From Nocardioidaceae bacterium (GTDB lineage Bacteria > Actinomycetota > Actinomycetes > Propionibacteriales > Nocardioidaceae): DNA of 8,219 nucleotides. The stretch covers positions 1 to 8,219 of the forward strand of contig JAGQUE010000506.1 in the NCBI GenBank assembly GCA_020438665.1, written 5' to 3'. A program made the translations under genes and the position numbers. The first letter of the stretch is position 1. Every line of letters starts with the position of its first letter. Positions 516 through 6,587 of this stretch are shown here, piece after piece. The notes under the pieces are model-generated. The model made no database searches. It was given only the letters and a program-made list of their open reading frames with translations, and was not told where the DNA came from.

Positions 516-553
516 CCGGATCAATCACACCGCTGGCATTCAGCCGCCACATG

Positions 554-589
554 CGTCACAATGGTGCGCACAACGTCATAACCGTCACA
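554..589 (+). promoter_or_regulatory. Three CGTCAYA repeats upstream of the DUF3145 gene
   Basis: The heptamer CGTCAYA occurs at 554-560 (CGTCACA), 574-580 (CGTCATA) and 583-589 (CGTCACA), with start-to-start steps of 20 and 9 bases, inside the 172-base gap before the DUF3145 gene. CATAAC at 577-582 matches a -10 hexamer at four of six positions, but no convincing -35 sits at the right distance. The stretch is a plausible promoter or operator region, but a chance repeat cannot be excluded. Confidence 0.3.
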
Positions 590-646
590 CGGCCCTCATC
601 ACCGAGGCGAGAACGCTGGGGAAGGCGCATCTCCGCGCTGGTGATG

Positions 647-654
647 AAGGAGGT
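647..654 (+). promoter_or_regulatory. Shine-Dalgarno sequence fixing the DUF3145 start
   Basis: AAGGAGGT is a near-perfect complement to the 3' end of 16S rRNA. It lies four bases before GTG at 659-661. It overlaps or follows the other in-frame candidates upstream (ATG 551, GTG 641, ATG 644), which therefore cannot use it. Confidence 0.85.
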
Positions 655-658
655 CTGG

Positions 659-1177
659 GTGACCACAAGCACTGCCACTCGCGTTGCGACGAGGGGTGTC
701 CTTTTCGTGCACTCCGCGCCGTCGGCGATGTGCCCCCACATCGAGTGGGCGGTCGGTGGTGTTCTTGGCGTGGCCACGAACATGCACTGGACTCCCCAGC
801 CTGCCCAGTCGGGCACCTATCGCGCCGAGCTGTCCTGGTCCGGTGCGGCCGGCAGCGCCGCCGCGATCGCCTCGGCGCTGCGCGGCTGGAACCACCTGCG
901 CTTCGAGGCCACCGAAGAGCCCACCCCGGGCACCGAGGGCGCCCGCTTCTCCTACACCCCGCACCTCGGTGTCTTCCATGCCGTCACGGGCATCCACGGC
1001 GACATCATGATCCCCGAGGATCGCATCAAGGCCGCGGTCGTCAAGGCGACGCTGGGTGACACCACGCTGCTGACCGAGATCGACAAGCTGCTCGGCAAGC
1101 CGTGGGACGACGAGCTCGAGACGTTCCGGCACGCGGGCGAGGGTGCCCCGGTCCGCTGGCTCCACCAGGTCGTCTGA
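659..1177 (+). CDS. DUF3145 family protein
   Basis: A 172-residue protein read from GTG 659, chosen because of the ideal ribosome site just upstream and because the family is about 165 residues and starts just before the TRGVL motif. Conserved-looking blocks are TRGVLFVHSAP (11-21), CPHIEWA (25-31), ASALRGWNHLRFE (71-83), TPHLGVFHA (100-108) and WDDELETFRHA (149-159). There is no signal peptide or membrane helix, so it is probably cytoplasmic. The family is restricted to actinobacteria as far as I know, and no biochemical function is known to me. It converges on the fatty-acid operon with only 35 bases between stop codons. I recall DUF3145 genes next to fab clusters in other actinobacteria, which hints at a lipid-related role, but that is inference from neighbourhood alone. 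Confidence 0.9.
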   Translation: MTTSTATRVATRGVLFVHSAPSAMCPHIEWAVGGVLGVATNMHWTPQPAQSGTYRAELSWSGAAGSAAAIASALRGWNHLRFEATEEPTPGTEGARFSYTPHLGVFHAVTGIHGDIMIPEDRIKAAVVKATLGDTTLLTEIDKLLGKPWDDELETFRHAGEGAPVRWLHQVV

Positions 1178-1212: not shown

Positions 1213-2691
1213 TCAGAGCGGGATGTTGCCGTGTGCCCCGCGTCGGACGCCCTTGGCCGAGATGTCGTCGGCGATGGCACGGGCGATCGCCGAGCGGGTG
1301 TGGGCGGGGTCGACCACCTCGTCGACGACGCCGATCTCCACGGCCTTGTCGACACCACCCGCGATGAGCTCGTGTTCGGCTGCGAGCTCGGCCTCGACCT
1401 GCGCCCGCAGATCGGGAGCGACCTCGGCCAGCTTGCGTCGGTGGAGGATGCGGATCGCGGCGACCGACCCCATCACGGCGACTTCGGCACCCGGCCAGGC
1501 GAACACCTTGGTGGCCCCGAGGGACCGTGAGTTCATCGCGACGTAGGCACCGCCATAGGTCTTGCGGGTCACCAGGCTGACACGGGGCACCACGCACTCG
1601 CCGAACGCATGGAGGAGCTTGGCTCCGCGCCGGACCACGCCGTCCCACTCCTGGCCGACACCCGGGAGATAGCCGGGCACATCGATGAGCACGATGAGCG
1701 GGACACCGAAGGCGTCGCACATGCGCACGAACCGGGACGCCTTCTCGGCCGATGCCGAGTCCAGGCAGCCACCGAGACGCAGTGGGTTGTTGGCGACGAC
1801 GCCGACGGTGCGGCCGCCGAACCGCCCCAGGGCGGTGACGATGTTGGGGGCCCAGCGCTGGTGGAGCTCCTGCATGGTGTCGTCGTCGAGCACGGCCGCC
1901 ACGAGCGGGTGCACGTCATAGGCGCGCTTGGGGGACTCGGGGAGGGAGGCGGCCAGGTCGCGGTCCTCGACCGCGGGGACGTCGAGCGTCCCCGGCGCAC
2001 CGAGCAAGTGGCCCACCGCGCGGGCACGGTCGAGCGCCTCGGCCTCGGAGTCGGTCAGGATGTGAACGACACCCGAGCGGCGACCGTGGGGCTCGGGACC
2101 ACCGAGACGCAGCATGTCGACGTCCTCGCCGGTCACCGACCGGACGACGTCGGGACCCGTGACGAAGATGCGCCCGTCGGGGCCCAGGATCACCACATCG
2201 GTCAGGGCCGGGCCATAGGCCGCACCACCGGCGGCCGGGCCGAGGACCACGGAGATCTGCGGGATCTTGCCGGACGCCTGCGTCATCACCTGGAAGACAC
2301 GCCCCACCGCGTGGAGCGACAGCACCCCCTCCGCGAGCCGTGCCCCGCCCGAGTGCCACAGTCCGATGATCGGTACGGCGTCGGTCAGCGCGCGGTGGTA
2401 GGCGGCGACGATGACCTGGCAGCCCTGATCGCCCATCGCACCGCCCATCACGGTGGCGTCGGTGGAGAACGCGACGACCGGTGCCCCATGGACCCGACCG
2501 GTGACGGCGAGCACCCCCGACTCGTCGCCGGGGCTGATCAGCTCCAGGGAGCCTTCGTCCAGCAGCGCGCTGAGTCGGCGTAGGGGGTGGCGCGGGTCGT
2601 CAAGGCGCGAGGGCTTGGGCGCCCGCGGGGCCGGGACCTCGGCGGCGGTCGTCGAGGCCGTCGACACCGGGCCCGCCTGGACCGCGGTCAT
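1213..2691 (-). CDS. accD6: Acyl-CoA carboxylase carboxyltransferase (beta) subunit, AccD6-like
   Basis: A 492-residue carboxyltransferase subunit that moves carboxyl from carboxybiotin to acetyl- or propionyl-CoA, giving malonyl- or methylmalonyl-CoA. It is full length for the PccB/AccD6 type, with both crotonase-like halves in one chain. The oxyanion-type glycine motifs are GPAAGGAAYGPALTD (151-165) and KTYGGAYVAMNSR (377-389). TDATVMGGAMG (77-87), WHSGGARLAEG (112-122), VTGPDVVRSVTGEDVDM (177-193) and NNPLRLGGCLDS (301-312) are close to my recollection of mycobacterial AccD6, as is the C-terminal tail ending HGNIPL. Val384 occupies the position where Streptomyces PccB has the propionyl-selecting Asp422; AccD6 has Ile there. 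The start ATG at 2691-2689 overlaps the fabF stop by one base, so the gene is probably translated by coupling. The biotinylated alpha partner (AccA3-like) is not in the window. Family is sure; acetyl-CoA preference is inferred. Confidence 0.95.
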   Translation of the reverse strand: MTAVQAGPVSTASTTAAEVPAPRAPKPSRLDDPRHPLRRLSALLDEGSLELISPGDESGVLAVTGRVHGAPVVAFSTDATVMGGAMGDQGCQVIVAAYHRALTDAVPIIGLWHSGGARLAEGVLSLHAVGRVFQVMTQASGKIPQISVVLGPAAGGAAYGPALTDVVILGPDGRIFVTGPDVVRSVTGEDVDMLRLGGPEPHGRRSGVVHILTDSEAEALDRARAVGHLLGAPGTLDVPAVEDRDLAASLPESPKRAYDVHPLVAAVLDDDTMQELHQRWAPNIVTALGRFGGRTVGVVANNPLRLGGCLDSASAEKASRFVRMCDAFGVPLIVLIDVPGYLPGVGQEWDGVVRRGAKLLHAFGECVVPRVSLVTRKTYGGAYVAMNSRSLGATKVFAWPGAEVAVMGSVAAIRILHRRKLAEVAPDLRAQVEAELAAEHELIAGGVDKAVEIGVVDEVVDPAHTRSAIARAIADDISAKGVRRGAHGNIPL

Positions 2692-2693
2692 CA
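2689..2693 (-). promoter_or_regulatory. TGATG stop/start overlap joining fabF to accD
   Basis: On the minus strand the fabF stop TGA (2693-2691) shares its last base with the accD start ATG (2691-2689). This arrangement typically gives translational coupling and suggests matched output of the ketosynthase and the carboxyltransferase. Confidence 0.8.
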
Positions 2694-3929
2694 GACGCTC
2701 CTGAAGGCGAGAGCCACGTTGTGGCCCCCGAACCCGAAGGAGTTGTTGAGCCCGGCGATGTCGCCCGAGGGCAGGTCGCGCCGCTTGTCGGCGAGGTCGA
2801 GCCCGACGTCCTCGGGATCATCCAGGTTGATGGTCGGCGGAACGGTGCGGTCTCGCAGCGCGAGGATCGTCGCGACGGACTCCAGCGCGCCGGCAGCGCC
2901 GAGCAGGTGCCCGGTCATGGACTTGGTCGAGGTCACGACCACTCGGCCGGCGGCCTCATCGCCGAGGGCCGTGCGGATGGCCAGCGCCTCGGCAAGGTCG
3001 CCTTGCGGCGTGGACGTGGCATGCGCGTTGATGTGGACGATGTCGGCCGGCGTCAGGTCGGCCTCGGCCAGGGCCATACGCATGGCCCTGGTCGCTCCCA
3101 GGCCCGACGGGTCGGGCTGGGCGATGTCGTGGGAGTCGGCGGTGATGCCGGCACCGGCGGCTTCCGCATAGATGCGCGCACCCCGGGCGGCCGCGTGCTC
3201 GGCTGACTCCAGGACCACCGCAGCGGAGCCTTCGCCCAGGACGAAGCCGTCGCGGCCCTTGTCCCACGGGCGGGAGGCTGCTGGGGGGTCGTCGTTGCGC
3301 TTGGACAGCGCCATCATCTGGCTGAAGGCGGCCATCGGGAGGGCATGAACGGCGGCCTCGGTGCCGCCACACACCACGACGTCGGCGCGACCGAGCCGGA
3401 TCATGTCGATGCCGAGCGCGATGGCCTCGTTGCCCGAGGCGCACGCGGACACGGGCGTGTGGACGCCGGCCTTGGCGCCGATCGCGAGCCCGATGTTGGC
3501 CGCGGGGGAGTTGGGCATGAGCATCGGGATCGCCAGCGGCGACACCCGCCGTGGGCCCTTCTCGTTGAGCGCGTCGTAGTTGCTCAGCAGTGTCTGGACC
3601 CCACCGATCCCGGAGGCCATGGCGACACCGAGACGCTCGGGATCGACCCCGCCGTCGGCGAGGCCGGAGTCCGCCCATGCCTCGAGGCCGGCGACCATGG
3701 CCAGCTGGCCGGAGCGGTCGAGGCGTCGTGCCTTGACGCGGTCGAGGACCTCGGTCGGGTCGACCGCCGCGACGGCGGCGATACGCGCCGGGAGCTGCCC
3801 GGCCCAGTCCTCGGTCAGGGCGGAGACGCCCGAGCGGCCCTCGAGGAGGGCAGCCCACGTGGAGGCGACATCGCCTCCGACGGGTGAGGTGGCGCCCAGG
3901 CCGGTGACGACGACTCGCTTGGTGCTCAT
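2691..3929 (-). CDS. fabF: Beta-ketoacyl-ACP synthase II (KAS II)
   Basis: A 412-residue elongating condensing enzyme that joins malonyl-ACP to a growing acyl-ACP and releases CO2. The thiolase-fold active site is complete: nucleophile Cys163 in SACASGNEA, His303 in NAHATSTPQGD, Lys336 in TSTKSMTGH and His341 in GHLLGAAGA. The glycine-rich C-terminal loop NNSFGFGGHN is at 395-404. Length and residue numbering nearly equal Escherichia coli FabF. The start is ATG 3929-3927 because MSTKRVVVTGLG is the usual N terminus and AAGGA (3941-3937) lies seven bases upstream; the frame stays open further upstream but into non-coding sequence and acpP. It is related to mycobacterial KasA, but only one KAS II copy is present here, unlike the kasA-kasB pair. 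Its stop overlaps the accD start. Confidence 0.97.
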   Translation of the reverse strand: MSTKRVVVTGLGATSPVGGDVASTWAALLEGRSGVSALTEDWAGQLPARIAAVAAVDPTEVLDRVKARRLDRSGQLAMVAGLEAWADSGLADGGVDPERLGVAMASGIGGVQTLLSNYDALNEKGPRRVSPLAIPMLMPNSPAANIGLAIGAKAGVHTPVSACASGNEAIALGIDMIRLGRADVVVCGGTEAAVHALPMAAFSQMMALSKRNDDPPAASRPWDKGRDGFVLGEGSAAVVLESAEHAAARGARIYAEAAGAGITADSHDIAQPDPSGLGATRAMRMALAEADLTPADIVHINAHATSTPQGDLAEALAIRTALGDEAAGRVVVTSTKSMTGHLLGAAGALESVATILALRDRTVPPTINLDDPEDVGLDLADKRRDLPSGDIAGLNNSFGFGGHNVALAFRSV

Positions 3930-4047: not shown

Positions 4048-4293
4048 TCAGCCCTGGGCGCGCTCGATGAAGGCGACGGCGTCACCGACGGTCTTGAGGT
4101 TCTTGACCTCGTCGTCGGGGATGGAGACGCCGAACTTCTCCTCACAGGCGACGACGACCTCGACCATGGAGAGCGAGTCGACGTCGAGGTCGTCCACGAA
4201 CGACTTGTCGAGCTGGACGTCGTCGGCGTCGATCCCGGCGACCTCGTTGACGATCTCGGCGAGGTCGGCGCGGATCTCTTCAGTGGTGGCCAT
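4048..4293 (-). CDS. acpP: Acyl carrier protein
   Basis: An 81-residue acidic acyl carrier protein that carries the growing acyl chain on a 4'-phosphopantetheine arm. The attachment serine is Ser40 in the DSL motif (DLDVDSLSMVE, 35-45). Helix I (TEEIRADLAEIVNEVAG) and the C-terminal helix (TVGDAVAFIERAQG) fit the four-helix ACP fold. It lacks the long C-terminal extension of mycobacterial AcpM, so it is a standard-length ACP like that of Streptomyces. The start is ATG 4293-4291, preceded by GAAGGA (4306-4301) with a seven-base spacer; an in-frame ATG further upstream at 4410 would overlap fabH and gives no ACP-like sequence. It lies between fabH (46-base gap) and fabF (118-base gap), so it has its own ribosome site and is not coupled to its neighbours. 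Confidence 0.98.
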   Translation of the reverse strand: MATTEEIRADLAEIVNEVAGIDADDVQLDKSFVDDLDVDSLSMVEVVVACEEKFGVSIPDDEVKNLKTVGDAVAFIERAQG

Positions 4294-4339: not shown

Positions 4340-5353
4340 TCAGGGGATGATGACGACCTGGGCCGCATAGGCCAGGCCGGCACCGAAGGCGATGAACAAC
4401 GCCGTGTCACCGCTCTTCGCCTCGCCCTCGGAGTACATCCGGTCGAGGGCGAGGGGGATCGAGGCCGCCGAGGTGTTGCCCTGCTCGGCGATGTCGCGGG
4501 CGATCTTGACCCGCTCGGGGAGCTTCATGGCCTTCGCCATGGCGTCCGTGATGCGCATGTTGGCCTGATGCGGCACGAAGATGTCGAGGTCGTCGACCGT
4601 GATGCCGGCGCGATCGAGCGCCTCCTGGGCGACCTTGGCCATCGTGAAGACGGCCCAGCGGAACACCGGGTTGCCCTGCATCACCAGGTGGGGCATGAGG
4701 CCGGAGCCCGGGGTCTCGGGGGAGCCGACGACATCGCGCCAGTCCTCCTTCTGACGGATCAGGTCGAACTGCTCGCCGTCGGAGCCCCAGACGACCGGAC
4801 CGATCGCGGGGGCGTCGCTCGGGCCGATGACCGCGGCGCCCGCACCGTCGGCGAAGATGAAAGCCGTCCCGCGGTCATAGACATCGGTGAGGTCGGAGAG
4901 CCGCTCCACGCCGATGACCAGCACATGGCGGGCGCTGCCGCCGCGGACCATGTCGGCGGCCATCGAGACGCCGTAGGTGAAGCCGGCGCAGGCCGCGGAG
5001 ATGTCGAAGGCCGCCGCCTGGTTGGTGCCGAGCTCGTGGGCGATCGCCGTCGAGATCGCCGGCGTCTGCAGCAGGTGGCTCACCGTGGCCACGATGACGC
5101 AGTCGATCTGCTCGGCCGTCATCCCACTGTGCTCGAGCGCTTGGCGTGCCGCGGCCACCGACATCAGCTGCACGGTCTCGTCGGGGGCGGCCCAGCGGCG
5201 CTGCTTGATGCCGGACCGCTGCTGGATCCACTCGTCGCTGGACTCGATCGCCTCGACCACCTCGGAGTTGGGGATGACCAACGAGGGTCGGTAGGCCCCG
5301 ATCCCCAGGATGCGGGCGTGCTGGGCGCCTTGCTGGTGGATGTTGATCGTCAT
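4340..5353 (-). CDS. fabH: Beta-ketoacyl-ACP synthase III
   Basis: A 337-residue enzyme that starts fatty-acid synthesis by condensing an acyl-CoA primer with malonyl-ACP. The Cys-His-Asn triad is present: Cys122 in SAACAGF, His262 in VPHQAN (260-265) and Asn293 in QGNTSAAS (291-298). The N-terminal part carries ILGIGAYRPS (15-24) and the SSDEWIQQRSGI motif (38-49), both typical of FabH. Thr97 in LLQTPA sits where E. coli FabH has Phe87 and Mycobacterium tuberculosis FabH has Thr87, so the acyl pocket is probably open to longer or branched primers. The start ATG 5353-5351 overlaps the fabD stop by one base; extending the frame upstream gives only a Pro/Gly-rich string antisense to the fabD coding frame. 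Assignment is sure; primer choice is inferred. Confidence 0.97.
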   Translation of the reverse strand: MTINIHQQGAQHARILGIGAYRPSLVIPNSEVVEAIESSDEWIQQRSGIKQRRWAAPDETVQLMSVAAARQALEHSGMTAEQIDCVIVATVSHLLQTPAISTAIAHELGTNQAAAFDISAACAGFTYGVSMAADMVRGGSARHVLVIGVERLSDLTDVYDRGTAFIFADGAGAAVIGPSDAPAIGPVVWGSDGEQFDLIRQKEDWRDVVGSPETPGSGLMPHLVMQGNPVFRWAVFTMAKVAQEALDRAGITVDDLDIFVPHQANMRITDAMAKAMKLPERVKIARDIAEQGNTSAASIPLALDRMYSEGEAKSGDTALFIAFGAGLAYAAQVVIIP

Positions 5354-5355
5354 CA
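5351..5355 (-). promoter_or_regulatory. TGATG stop/start overlap joining fabD to fabH
   Basis: The fabD stop TGA (5355-5353) shares one base with the fabH start ATG (5353-5351) on the minus strand. The same junction type is found at fabF-accD, and it implies translational coupling of the malonyl transferase and the initiating synthase. Confidence 0.8.
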
Positions 5356-6537
5356 GGCCGTTCCCTCCGGGTGAAGCCGGACCAGGGGTTGGCCCGGGGA
5401 GACCAGGTCGCCGTCCTCGACCAGCCACTCCACGACCTGGCCGCCGTGGGGGGCGAGGATGTCGGTGCGGTCGCGCAGGCTCGCCACCGCGCCGACGACG
5501 GCGCCGGGCGGTAGCAGGCTGGCGTCGCGGGCCGCATCGTCGAGGTGGAAGGTGCCCTTGGCCGGGGAGACGACCATGCGCCAGGTCGGTGTGGTGTCGA
5601 TGACGGAGGGCTCACCGTGCTTCTCGACGAACGCGCGGGCATCGTCGAGCTGGTCGGGGGTCTTGAGTGCGAACGTCTCGACTCCCTTCATGGCGCGCTT
5701 GGCGATGCCGGTGAGGGTGCCGGCGGGAGGCATCTCGAGCAGCCCCGTCACGCCGAGGTCGAGCATCGTCTCCATGCACAGGTCCCAGCGGACCGGGCTG
5801 GCGATCTGGCCCACGATGCGGCCGAGCAGGTCGACGCCGTGATGGACCACCTGGCCGTCACGGTTGGAGATCACGGGAGTGCGGGGGTCGTGGGTCGAGA
5901 CCGAGCGGGCCAGCCGCTCGAGGTGGCCGACCGCGGGCGCCATGTGGGCGGTGTGGAAGGCGCCCGCGACGCTCAGCGGCACGAGGCGTGCCTTGGCGGG
6001 CGGATCGTCGGCCAGCGCTGAGAGCTGCTCGAGGGTGCCGGCGGCGACGACCTGCCCCGGGGCGTTGTCGTTGGCGGGGGTCACCCCGTGACGTTCGAGC
6101 GTGGCCAGCACCTCGTCGCGGTCGCCCCCGAGGACGGCGGTCATGCCGGTGGGCGTGCGGGCGGCGGCGTCGGCCATCGCTTTGCCGCGCTCGCGCACGA
6201 GGACCATGGCCTGCTCGGCGGTGATCGCTCGGGCGCCGGCGGCGGCGGCGAGCTCACCCACGCTGTGCCCCGCCACGGCCCCGATCTTGGAGAACGCGTC
6301 GGCGGGGTGGGGGAACAGCCCCAGCGCCGCCACGAGCGGAGTCGCGACCAGCAGTGGCTGGGCGATCTGGGTGTCACGGATGGTCTCGGCGTCGGCCTCG
6401 GTGCCGAAGTGGGCCAGGTCGAGCCCGGCCACGGTGGACAGCCACTCGAGACGGGAGGCGAAGACGGGGTCCTCGAGCCACGGGGTCAAGAAGCCGGGAG
6501 TCTGAGCGCCCTGCCCGGGCGCGACGATCACGAGCAC
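5353..6537 (-). CDS. fabD: Malonyl-CoA:ACP transacylase with a C-terminal pseudo-biotinyl domain
   Basis: A 394-residue protein that transfers malonyl from CoA to ACP. The acyltransferase domain (about 1-300) has GQGAQ (8-12), the catalytic serine Ser92 in GHSVG (90-94), Arg117 in VRERG and His195 in AGAFHTAHM. Typical FabD is about 310 residues. Here a tail follows a linker: VVSPAKGTFH (322-331), then from Gly345 to the end a stretch that aligns without gaps to the BCCP biotinyl region, with VASLRD replacing the EAMKM core, Arg355 in place of the biotin-accepting lysine, and VEWLVEDGDLVSPGQPLVRL (368-387). It should therefore not be biotinylated. GTG 6537 is preferred because it gives MLVIVAPGQGAQ, the usual N terminus, although its ribosome site is weak; ATG 6576 would add 13 unlikely residues. 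The gene follows fasR after 79 bases. Confidence 0.95.
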   Translation of the reverse strand: MLVIVAPGQGAQTPGFLTPWLEDPVFASRLEWLSTVAGLDLAHFGTEADAETIRDTQIAQPLLVATPLVAALGLFPHPADAFSKIGAVAGHSVGELAAAAGARAITAEQAMVLVRERGKAMADAAARTPTGMTAVLGGDRDEVLATLERHGVTPANDNAPGQVVAAGTLEQLSALADDPPAKARLVPLSVAGAFHTAHMAPAVGHLERLARSVSTHDPRTPVISNRDGQVVHHGVDLLGRIVGQIASPVRWDLCMETMLDLGVTGLLEMPPAGTLTGIAKRAMKGVETFALKTPDQLDDARAFVEKHGEPSVIDTTPTWRMVVSPAKGTFHLDDAARDASLLPPGAVVGAVASLRDRTDILAPHGGQVVEWLVEDGDLVSPGQPLVRLHPEGTA

Positions 6538-6587
6538 AGTCCCACTCTGCCGGGTAAGGCGGCCCTGACTCGCCATCGAGACGCACG

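Follow-up and report, generated by a model that had tools for sequence, protein, structure and literature searches.

Relatives of the biotin carboxyl carrier protein (BCCP) that are not biotinylated have been described in plants. These BADC proteins, which have no AMKL motif, are described as an assembly glue and, on a different view, as an inhibitor (PMC11926652, PMC7712654). Actinobacterial acyl-CoA carboxylases have glue subunits such as AccE, and the authors liken this kind of subunit to BADC (PMC7835884). As for FabD, the mycobacterial enzyme is reported to hold the FASII enzymes together and to contact FabH, KasA and KasB; the same study provides a point against a need for docking, in that mycobacterial FabD is functional in yeast without these partners (PMC2765072).

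The DNA analysed here (the window) is a stretch of 8,219 nucleotides from a Nocardioidaceae bacterium, in which FabD is extended by a C-terminal domain of biotinyl type. FabD is the enzyme that gives malonyl units to fatty-acid synthesis, and type II fatty-acid synthesis (FAS-II) is usually viewed as a set of separate enzymes. A preliminary description had pointed to the extension and knew of no account of such a fusion; in the open-licence literature searched we likewise found, among the matches listed, no description of a FabD-biotinyl fusion or of a lysine-less domain between fabD and fabH. What is already known is the domain architecture as such, since in some relatives the domain is marked by Pfam and by the automatic annotation of NCBI. 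What is new is the lysine-free site in every examined copy, the loss of the carrier hairpin in some lineages, and the existence of both separate and fused forms.

The fabD locus and its additional domain

The operon lies on the minus strand of the window, with the order PucR-type gene, fabD (5353..6537), fabH (4340..5353), acpP for the acyl carrier protein (ACP; 4048..4293; PF00550), fabF for a condensing enzyme (2691..3929; profile match and neighbourhood), and an accD-type gene for the carboxyltransferase subunit of an acyl-CoA carboxylase (1213..2691; PF01039, 390 bits). A DUF3145 gene on the plus strand is convergent with the operon, and a scan of the window for promoters and terminators found 0 and 0. 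A FabD start at the GTG at 6537 gives 394 amino acids and agrees with relatives, and residues are counted from it as in the preliminary description; the frame is open further upstream, where an ATG at 6576 would give 407 amino acids.

The catalytic core, a malonyl-CoA:ACP transacylase (MAT) domain, comprises residues 1-304 (5626..6537, minus strand, from an alignment of 55 rows). FabD matches PF00698 with 73 bits (cut-off 32.7), and its MAT domain has the Ser, His, Arg and Gln that are typical of the family; Q9, S92 (in GHSVGE), R117 and H195 are invariant in 55/55 aligned FabD rows, and the family's catalytic residues are presumably among them. The TIGR00128 equivalog model gives 165.7 bits, short of its cut-off of 260.9, but despite this shortfall the protein matches the solved FabD 1nm2 at an E-value of 5.5e-102 and is encoded between the PucR-type gene and fabH. 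Another solved FabD, 2qc3, matches the MAT domain at 1e-78. Both solved chains, which we take to be actinobacterial FabDs, share the MAT domain and stop before the start of the extra domain. FabD of the mycobacterial kind is present in the PDB without a tail.

The core is followed by a linker of about residues 309-316 (5590..5613, minus strand). In the AlphaFold model both domains of FabD are confidently folded and the linker is not (block 311-320, mean pLDDT 58), so that one rigid unit is not suggested and the linker is predicted to be flexible.

The extra domain, a lysine-less biotinyl-type domain that we call PSB, comprises residues 317-390 (5368..5589, minus strand, from profile comparison and predicted structure). 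It is about 75 residues long and is predicted by AlphaFold, with a pLDDT of 92, to form the flattened beta-barrel of the biotinyl fold, and profile-profile comparison relates it to genuine biotinyl domains with an E-value of 3.6e-18. Structure prediction and profile comparison thus arrive at the same biotinyl barrel and bear out the BCCP-like domain that had been proposed from the sequence. In a structure search, in which Z differences under 1 were treated as ties, the best biotinyl domains gave Z 11.4 and other lipoyl-like proteins about 10. CphZ (cyanophycin dipeptide hydrolase) and efflux adaptors have lipoyl-like domains in the same fold class as the tail, score below the best biotinyl domains, and belong to operons unrelated to fab. 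With the PF00364 model the window tail reaches 16.8 bits, under the cut-off of 22.1; for the FabD tails of seven tailed genomes, two are over the cut-off (37.8 and 30.4), three are under it and two have no match, and PF00364 is precomputed for several relatives among the 120 listed.

The biotinyl domain (PF00364) found in AccB and at the C-terminus of AccA-type subunits shares with the window tail its predicted fold, its length and a turn of the VEDGxxVxxGQPL type, and the tail aligns to biotinyl domains without gaps through the carrier hairpin. Unlike the AccB and AccA domains, the tail has no lysine and no AMKM motif, is attached to FabD rather than to a carboxylase subunit, and lacks the thumb, the last point confirming what had been noted in the preliminary description. 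Several other origins for the resemblance were considered. Chance appears to be ruled out by the profile E-value together with the match to the predicted fold. Kinship to lipoyl rather than biotinyl domains is ruled out by the E-values, which are 1e-8 with a lipoyl profile of 7 rows and 4e-18 with the biotinyl profile. Annotation error or frameshift is ruled out by an intact frame that overlaps fabH, whose ATG shares one base with the fabD stop, and by purifying selection on the tail (dN/dS 0.39); the fusion, as had been argued, is real.

The tails of relatives do show conserved residues. Non-redundant class tails were obtained by reducing 164 aligned rows to 62 at 80% identity, 55 of which are tailed (L157 was dropped for a masked stretch). 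In these 55 rows G328, E370 and G382 are invariant, and P317, W319, R320, P325, G349, G366, W371, L372, G376, D377, V379, P381, Q383, P384 and R387 are nearly so. Because the GxxVxxGxxL...GQPL turns of biotinyl domains are structural, the conserved residues alone mark no binding face.

The position of the biotinyl lysine is occupied in the window by Arg355 (codon CGC, 5473..5475, minus strand, from the alignment), as originally reported. Of 403 aligned rows, 394 have a residue at this position; it is Arg in 370 of the 394 and, with near-copies counted, Lys in 0/394, which answers the question of whether Arg355 is ever replaced by Lys. Among the 55 non-redundant tails Arg occurs in 45, the others having S, Q, A, G, D or T. 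When 98 domains (43 of phylum loci, 55 of the class) were aligned jointly with 10 genuine biotinyl domains, the biotinyl-lysine column contained a lysine in 0/98 of the former and in 10/10 of the latter, and an MK motif occurred in 0/98. Domains that do not adjoin fabD (L257, L261, L263, L264 and L295) stand outside this alignment. Those of L257, L261, L263 and L264 carry the biotinyl lysine motif, and that of L295 is without it. Since the lysine is absent, PSB is not classed as a biotin carrier; it is a BCCP relative without the biotinylation motif, which is the BADC type. Arginine itself had been presented as a key feature, and this part of the preliminary description does not hold: Arg is found in 45 of the 55 non-redundant class tails, and in 11 of the 14 fused copies of deeper lineages the carrier hairpin is gone, with no residue at the lysine column. 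Such loss implies that carrier chemistry is dispensable.

It is accordingly very unlikely that the tail is still a carrier through modification of another residue, was a carrier until recently, or is a decaying relic of accB. Its homology to biotinyl domains and, in one group, a lysine adjoining the site (TKRE, K354) would fit such a reading, but the site itself is never Lys and the hairpin is lost in the 11 copies. Decay also agrees poorly with the dN/dS value and with the presence of the domain on the earliest class branches and across the phylum sample.

Distribution and history of fused and separate forms

The tail is no local oddity. In an even draw of the class, 105/296 genomes have a tail match extending to its end (query residue 98 or beyond, E at most 1e-9), and 123/296 have any tail match at E at most 1e-3; FabD at E at most 1e-30 was found in 272/296, among the matches listed. 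The tail is therefore common, and besides being fused to FabD the domain can have a gene of its own, located between fabD and fabH. A scan of named contigs found 250 relatives, and the 80 kept were all from Nocardioides except for one Nocardioidaceae and one Actinomycetota bacterium. Named relatives beyond Nocardioides, among the 120 listed, are Acidothermus/Acidothermaceae and Carbonactinospora thermoautotrophica. A recent novelty of Nocardioides is ruled out by the class and phylum surveys. On viral contigs, 0 relatives were found among 35 pattern matches. Many of the sampled Actinomycetes have no PSB, and untailed FabDs are scattered over the tree, so the module is either dispensable or replaceable.

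The phylum sample consisted of 198 genomes searched with the tail profile, 12 of them also with a FabD, and a second profile was built from 16 domains of deeper lineages, which the MAT tree places outside the class. These lineages have FabDs with PSB in the same frame, as well as small separate PSB genes adjoining fabD. All 40 phylum matches of at least 67 bits are fabD-linked, 14 being fused and 26 being a separate frame directly 3' of fabD, with the reservation that 16 of the 40 linked genomes supplied the profile and were partly picked for fabD linkage; the 24 such matches from genomes outside the profile set are also all fabD-linked. Below 67 bits, among the matches listed, G356 (51.9 bits, separate) and G002 (51.9 bits, fused) are fabD-linked, and in G377 (59.6 bits), G321 (53.2) and G466 (52.5) PSB is not directly 3' of fabD. 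Where PSB is a separate gene, 26 of the 27 fetched loci have it flanked by fabD and fabH, all on one strand, with a spacing of 47-252 bases from the preceding FabD match and of -6 to 69 bases to the following FabH match; the 27th locus (L260) stops at a contig end. In G466 (L291) and G377 (L292) PSB is directly upstream of fabH in a fab operon; fabD is divergent in L291 and absent from the fetched stretch in L292. The position of PSB beside fabD and fabH indicates that the module belongs with the FAS-II operon and not with accD. With the separate PSB of L256 as query, a search for homologues gave 2 proteins, and the range of the separate form is taken from the genome surveys. One separate copy is named a lipoyl domain-containing protein by its source, and the Carbonactinospora thermoautotrophica copy a biotin attachment protein; because the lysine is absent, both names are misleading.

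The class tail and the deeper-lineage domains resemble each other (E 5e-22) more closely than they do genuine biotinyl domains, which match the class tail at 4e-18 and the deeper-lineage domains at 1e-16. In a FastTree phylogeny of 150 MAT cores with a midpoint root, which omits seven phylum FabDs that had no match at the N-terminus, the class is well separated, with support of 100. The fused tail is present on the earliest branches of the class, and FabDs with no tail are scattered inside it, so several losses are likely. Mapping the fused, separate, partial and absent states on the tree requires 15 changes, a count that does not tell gain from loss, and since long branches meet in the tree its details are unsure. 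PSB can thus be described as a biotin-carrier module that has degenerated and belongs to the FAS-II operon of actinobacteria; existing as both a separate gene and a fusion, it is a part of this FAS-II that recurs and is under selection. It probably descends from a biotin carrier of the AccB/AccA type that was captured into the fab operon; we infer that the carrier gene joined the operon at an early stage, that the lysine was then lost, and that fusion to fabD took place repeatedly.

Possible partners of the domain

The preliminary description suggested that the tail docks FabD on the acyl-CoA carboxylase. The contact would be with AccD or with the alpha subunit that bears biotin, and it would serve to channel malonyl-CoA or, as with BADC, to assemble or restrain the carboxylase. 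We consider this unlikely. It is in line with the accD gene in the window's own operon, and with the presence of accD downstream in 43/47 tailed compared with 15/45 untailed class loci (loci with at least 4.5 kb downstream). Four class loci are tailed but have no accD (L152, L159, L162 and L163); these also lack Arg355, a coincidence that would speak for the carboxylase. By analogy, BADC may offer a precedent for a role at the carboxylase, and actinobacterial acyl-CoA carboxylases use non-catalytic glue subunits such as AccE (PMC7835884). When relatedness is allowed for, however, the accD link loses significance and comes down to 5 independent pairs (2.2 the same way, 0.5 the other way; median p 0.6), or 7 with the phylum loci included (median p 1). 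The tailed pair L162 and L163 has no accD, whereas its untailed sister clade of seven rows has accD throughout, and in the deeper lineages only 4 PSB loci have accD downstream, out of 28 whose downstream sequence extends to 5.5 kb or more. Rates of the tail and AccD do not co-vary either (partial correlation -0.16, p 0.99, n=44). Finally, it is the biotin hairpin that enters the active site of a carboxyltransferase, and this hairpin is deleted in most of the deeper fused copies. Docking to the carboxylase is thus disfavoured.

Rate co-variation was also evaluated for the FAS-II proteins, as partial correlations controlling for the other operon proteins, taking as input stop-to-stop frames and those alignment columns that were filled to 80% or more (44, 24 and 13 loci) and permutation p values that do not fully remove relatedness. 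For the class fused tail (n=44) the correlation is 0.55 with MAT (p 0.001), 0.22 with ACP (0.004), 0.11 with FabF (0.07) and 0.00 with FabH (0.53). The separate PSB (n=24) co-varies with ACP (0.35, p 0.001) and FabF (0.42, 0.001), with no partial co-variation with FabD (-0.04, p 0.64) or FabH (-0.02, 0.54). For the deeper fused copies (n=13) the values are 0.63 with FabD (p 0.001), 0.27 with FabF (0.008), 0.25 with FabH (0.06) and -0.27 with ACP (0.97). The three sets do not agree with one another, although overall the co-variation inclines towards ACP and FabF.

The strong co-variation of the fused tail with the MAT core in both fused sets would be expected if the tail were a structural appendage without any outside partner, there to make FabD stable, soluble or oligomeric, and untailed FabDs scattered among tailed ones agree with this as well. 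Such a role is nevertheless doubtful, because the linker, unlike both domains, has no confident fold, because PSB is a separate frame in 27 loci where it does not co-vary with FabD, and because two PSB genes occur in fab operons without a neighbouring co-directed fabD.

The leaning of the co-variation towards ACP and FabF favours, with modest confidence, a docking module inside FAS-II, and the missing biotin-bearing lysine makes a non-carrier role likely for such a module. We tentatively prefer this reading, at somewhat less than an even chance: the tail would be a non-carrier docking module of FAS-II that works with ACP and/or the condensing enzymes, the partner being suggested by the correlations. 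Precedents for such a role are BADC as an assembly glue (PMC11926652) and the reported ability of mycobacterial FabD to hold FASII enzymes together (PMC2765072). In this scenario a lysine-less domain is held to FabD by a predicted flexible linker; the carrier chemistry would have been lost and the protein-binding role of biotinyl domains kept. The partner would lie inside FAS-II, most likely ACP and/or condensing enzymes, and the tail may help FabD to load malonyl onto ACP near the place of use. In its broader form the proposal, which is possible but again falls short of probable, is that Actinomycetota have an undescribed FAS-II component, a captured biotin-carrier gene that is lysine-less and in some cases hairpin-less, placed between fabD and fabH or fused to FabD, and serving as a docking hub for malonyl transfer to ACP and the condensing enzymes.

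Comparison with known systems

If the docking module is real, the enzyme that loads malonyl would carry a widespread, selected and apparently non-catalytic part; genetically this would speak for an organised FAS-II complex, and the tail or the small gene would provide a simple genetic handle on malonyl channelling. AccE differs from PSB in that it acts on the carboxylase, whereas PSB is attached to FabD or encoded beside it; to our knowledge AccE also has no biotinyl fold. The two are alike in that AccE is a small subunit with an assembly role and no catalysis, whose gene adjoins that of its enzyme (PMC7835884). BADC and PSB are both lysine-less BCCP relatives that have no biotinylation motif, and BADC is non-catalytic (PMC11926652, PMC7712654). 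BADC binds BC and BCCP, whereas PSB is associated with FabD and, in Actinomycetota, with the fab operon. We suggest that PSB, if it functions as proposed, would show that bacteria too have put a swinging-arm domain to new use as a scaffold, in parallel to BADC in plants.

Separate and hairpin-less forms of the domain

In 27 of the fetched fab loci, a small lysine-less biotinyl-type gene (PSB) occupies its own reading frame directly 3′ of fabD (L253-L256, L258-L260, L262, L265-L273, L277, L280, L281 and L284-L290); the source annotation of the L256 copy is a lipoyl domain-containing protein. In loci L291 and L292, fabH lies immediately downstream of the PSB gene, while fabD is divergent or outside the fetched stretch; in L292 the genes fabF and then accD are found.

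Among the domains fused to FabD, those of loci L246-L250, L252, L276, L278, L279, L282 and L283 have the biotin hairpin deleted and carry sequence of the type GxVGEHEVRSPF. The carrier site has visibly been lost from these fusions.

The position of the biotinyl lysine

All four tailed loci of the Actinomycetes sample that have no downstream accD (L152, L159, L162 and L163) belong to the small group in which the biotinyl-lysine position holds a residue other than Arg. A further variation is seen in the protein relatives P0162, P0172, P0193, P0194 and P0201 and their kin, where the tip reads TKRE, with a lysine one residue before the site; this group includes a protein from Acidothermus (P0194).

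Unusual loci and the neighbouring DUF3145 gene

FabD of Nocardioides sp. B-3 (locus L038, genome G001) appears to be split into pieces in different frames (three matches); either the gene is truly interrupted or an error arose in sequencing or assembly. Genome G337 has two FabD-like genes, on contigs C75 and C320, and among the matches listed the domain is in frame with the C75 gene only. In locus L295, a 335-aa frame between fabF and accD holds another biotinyl-like domain (32.5 bits), with no MK motif within the matched stretch.

The window also contains a DUF3145 gene (551-1177, plus strand; Pfam match to an entry of unknown function) that runs convergently to the fab operon. Many loci of the Actinomycetes sample show this gene order too, whether their FabD is tailed or untailed.

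The window FabD compared with known FabD

The window FabD (5353-6537, minus strand) scores 165.7 bits, below the NCBIfam FabD equivalog cut-off of 260.9. Despite this, it matches the solved FabD structure 1nm2 at an E value of 5.5e-102.
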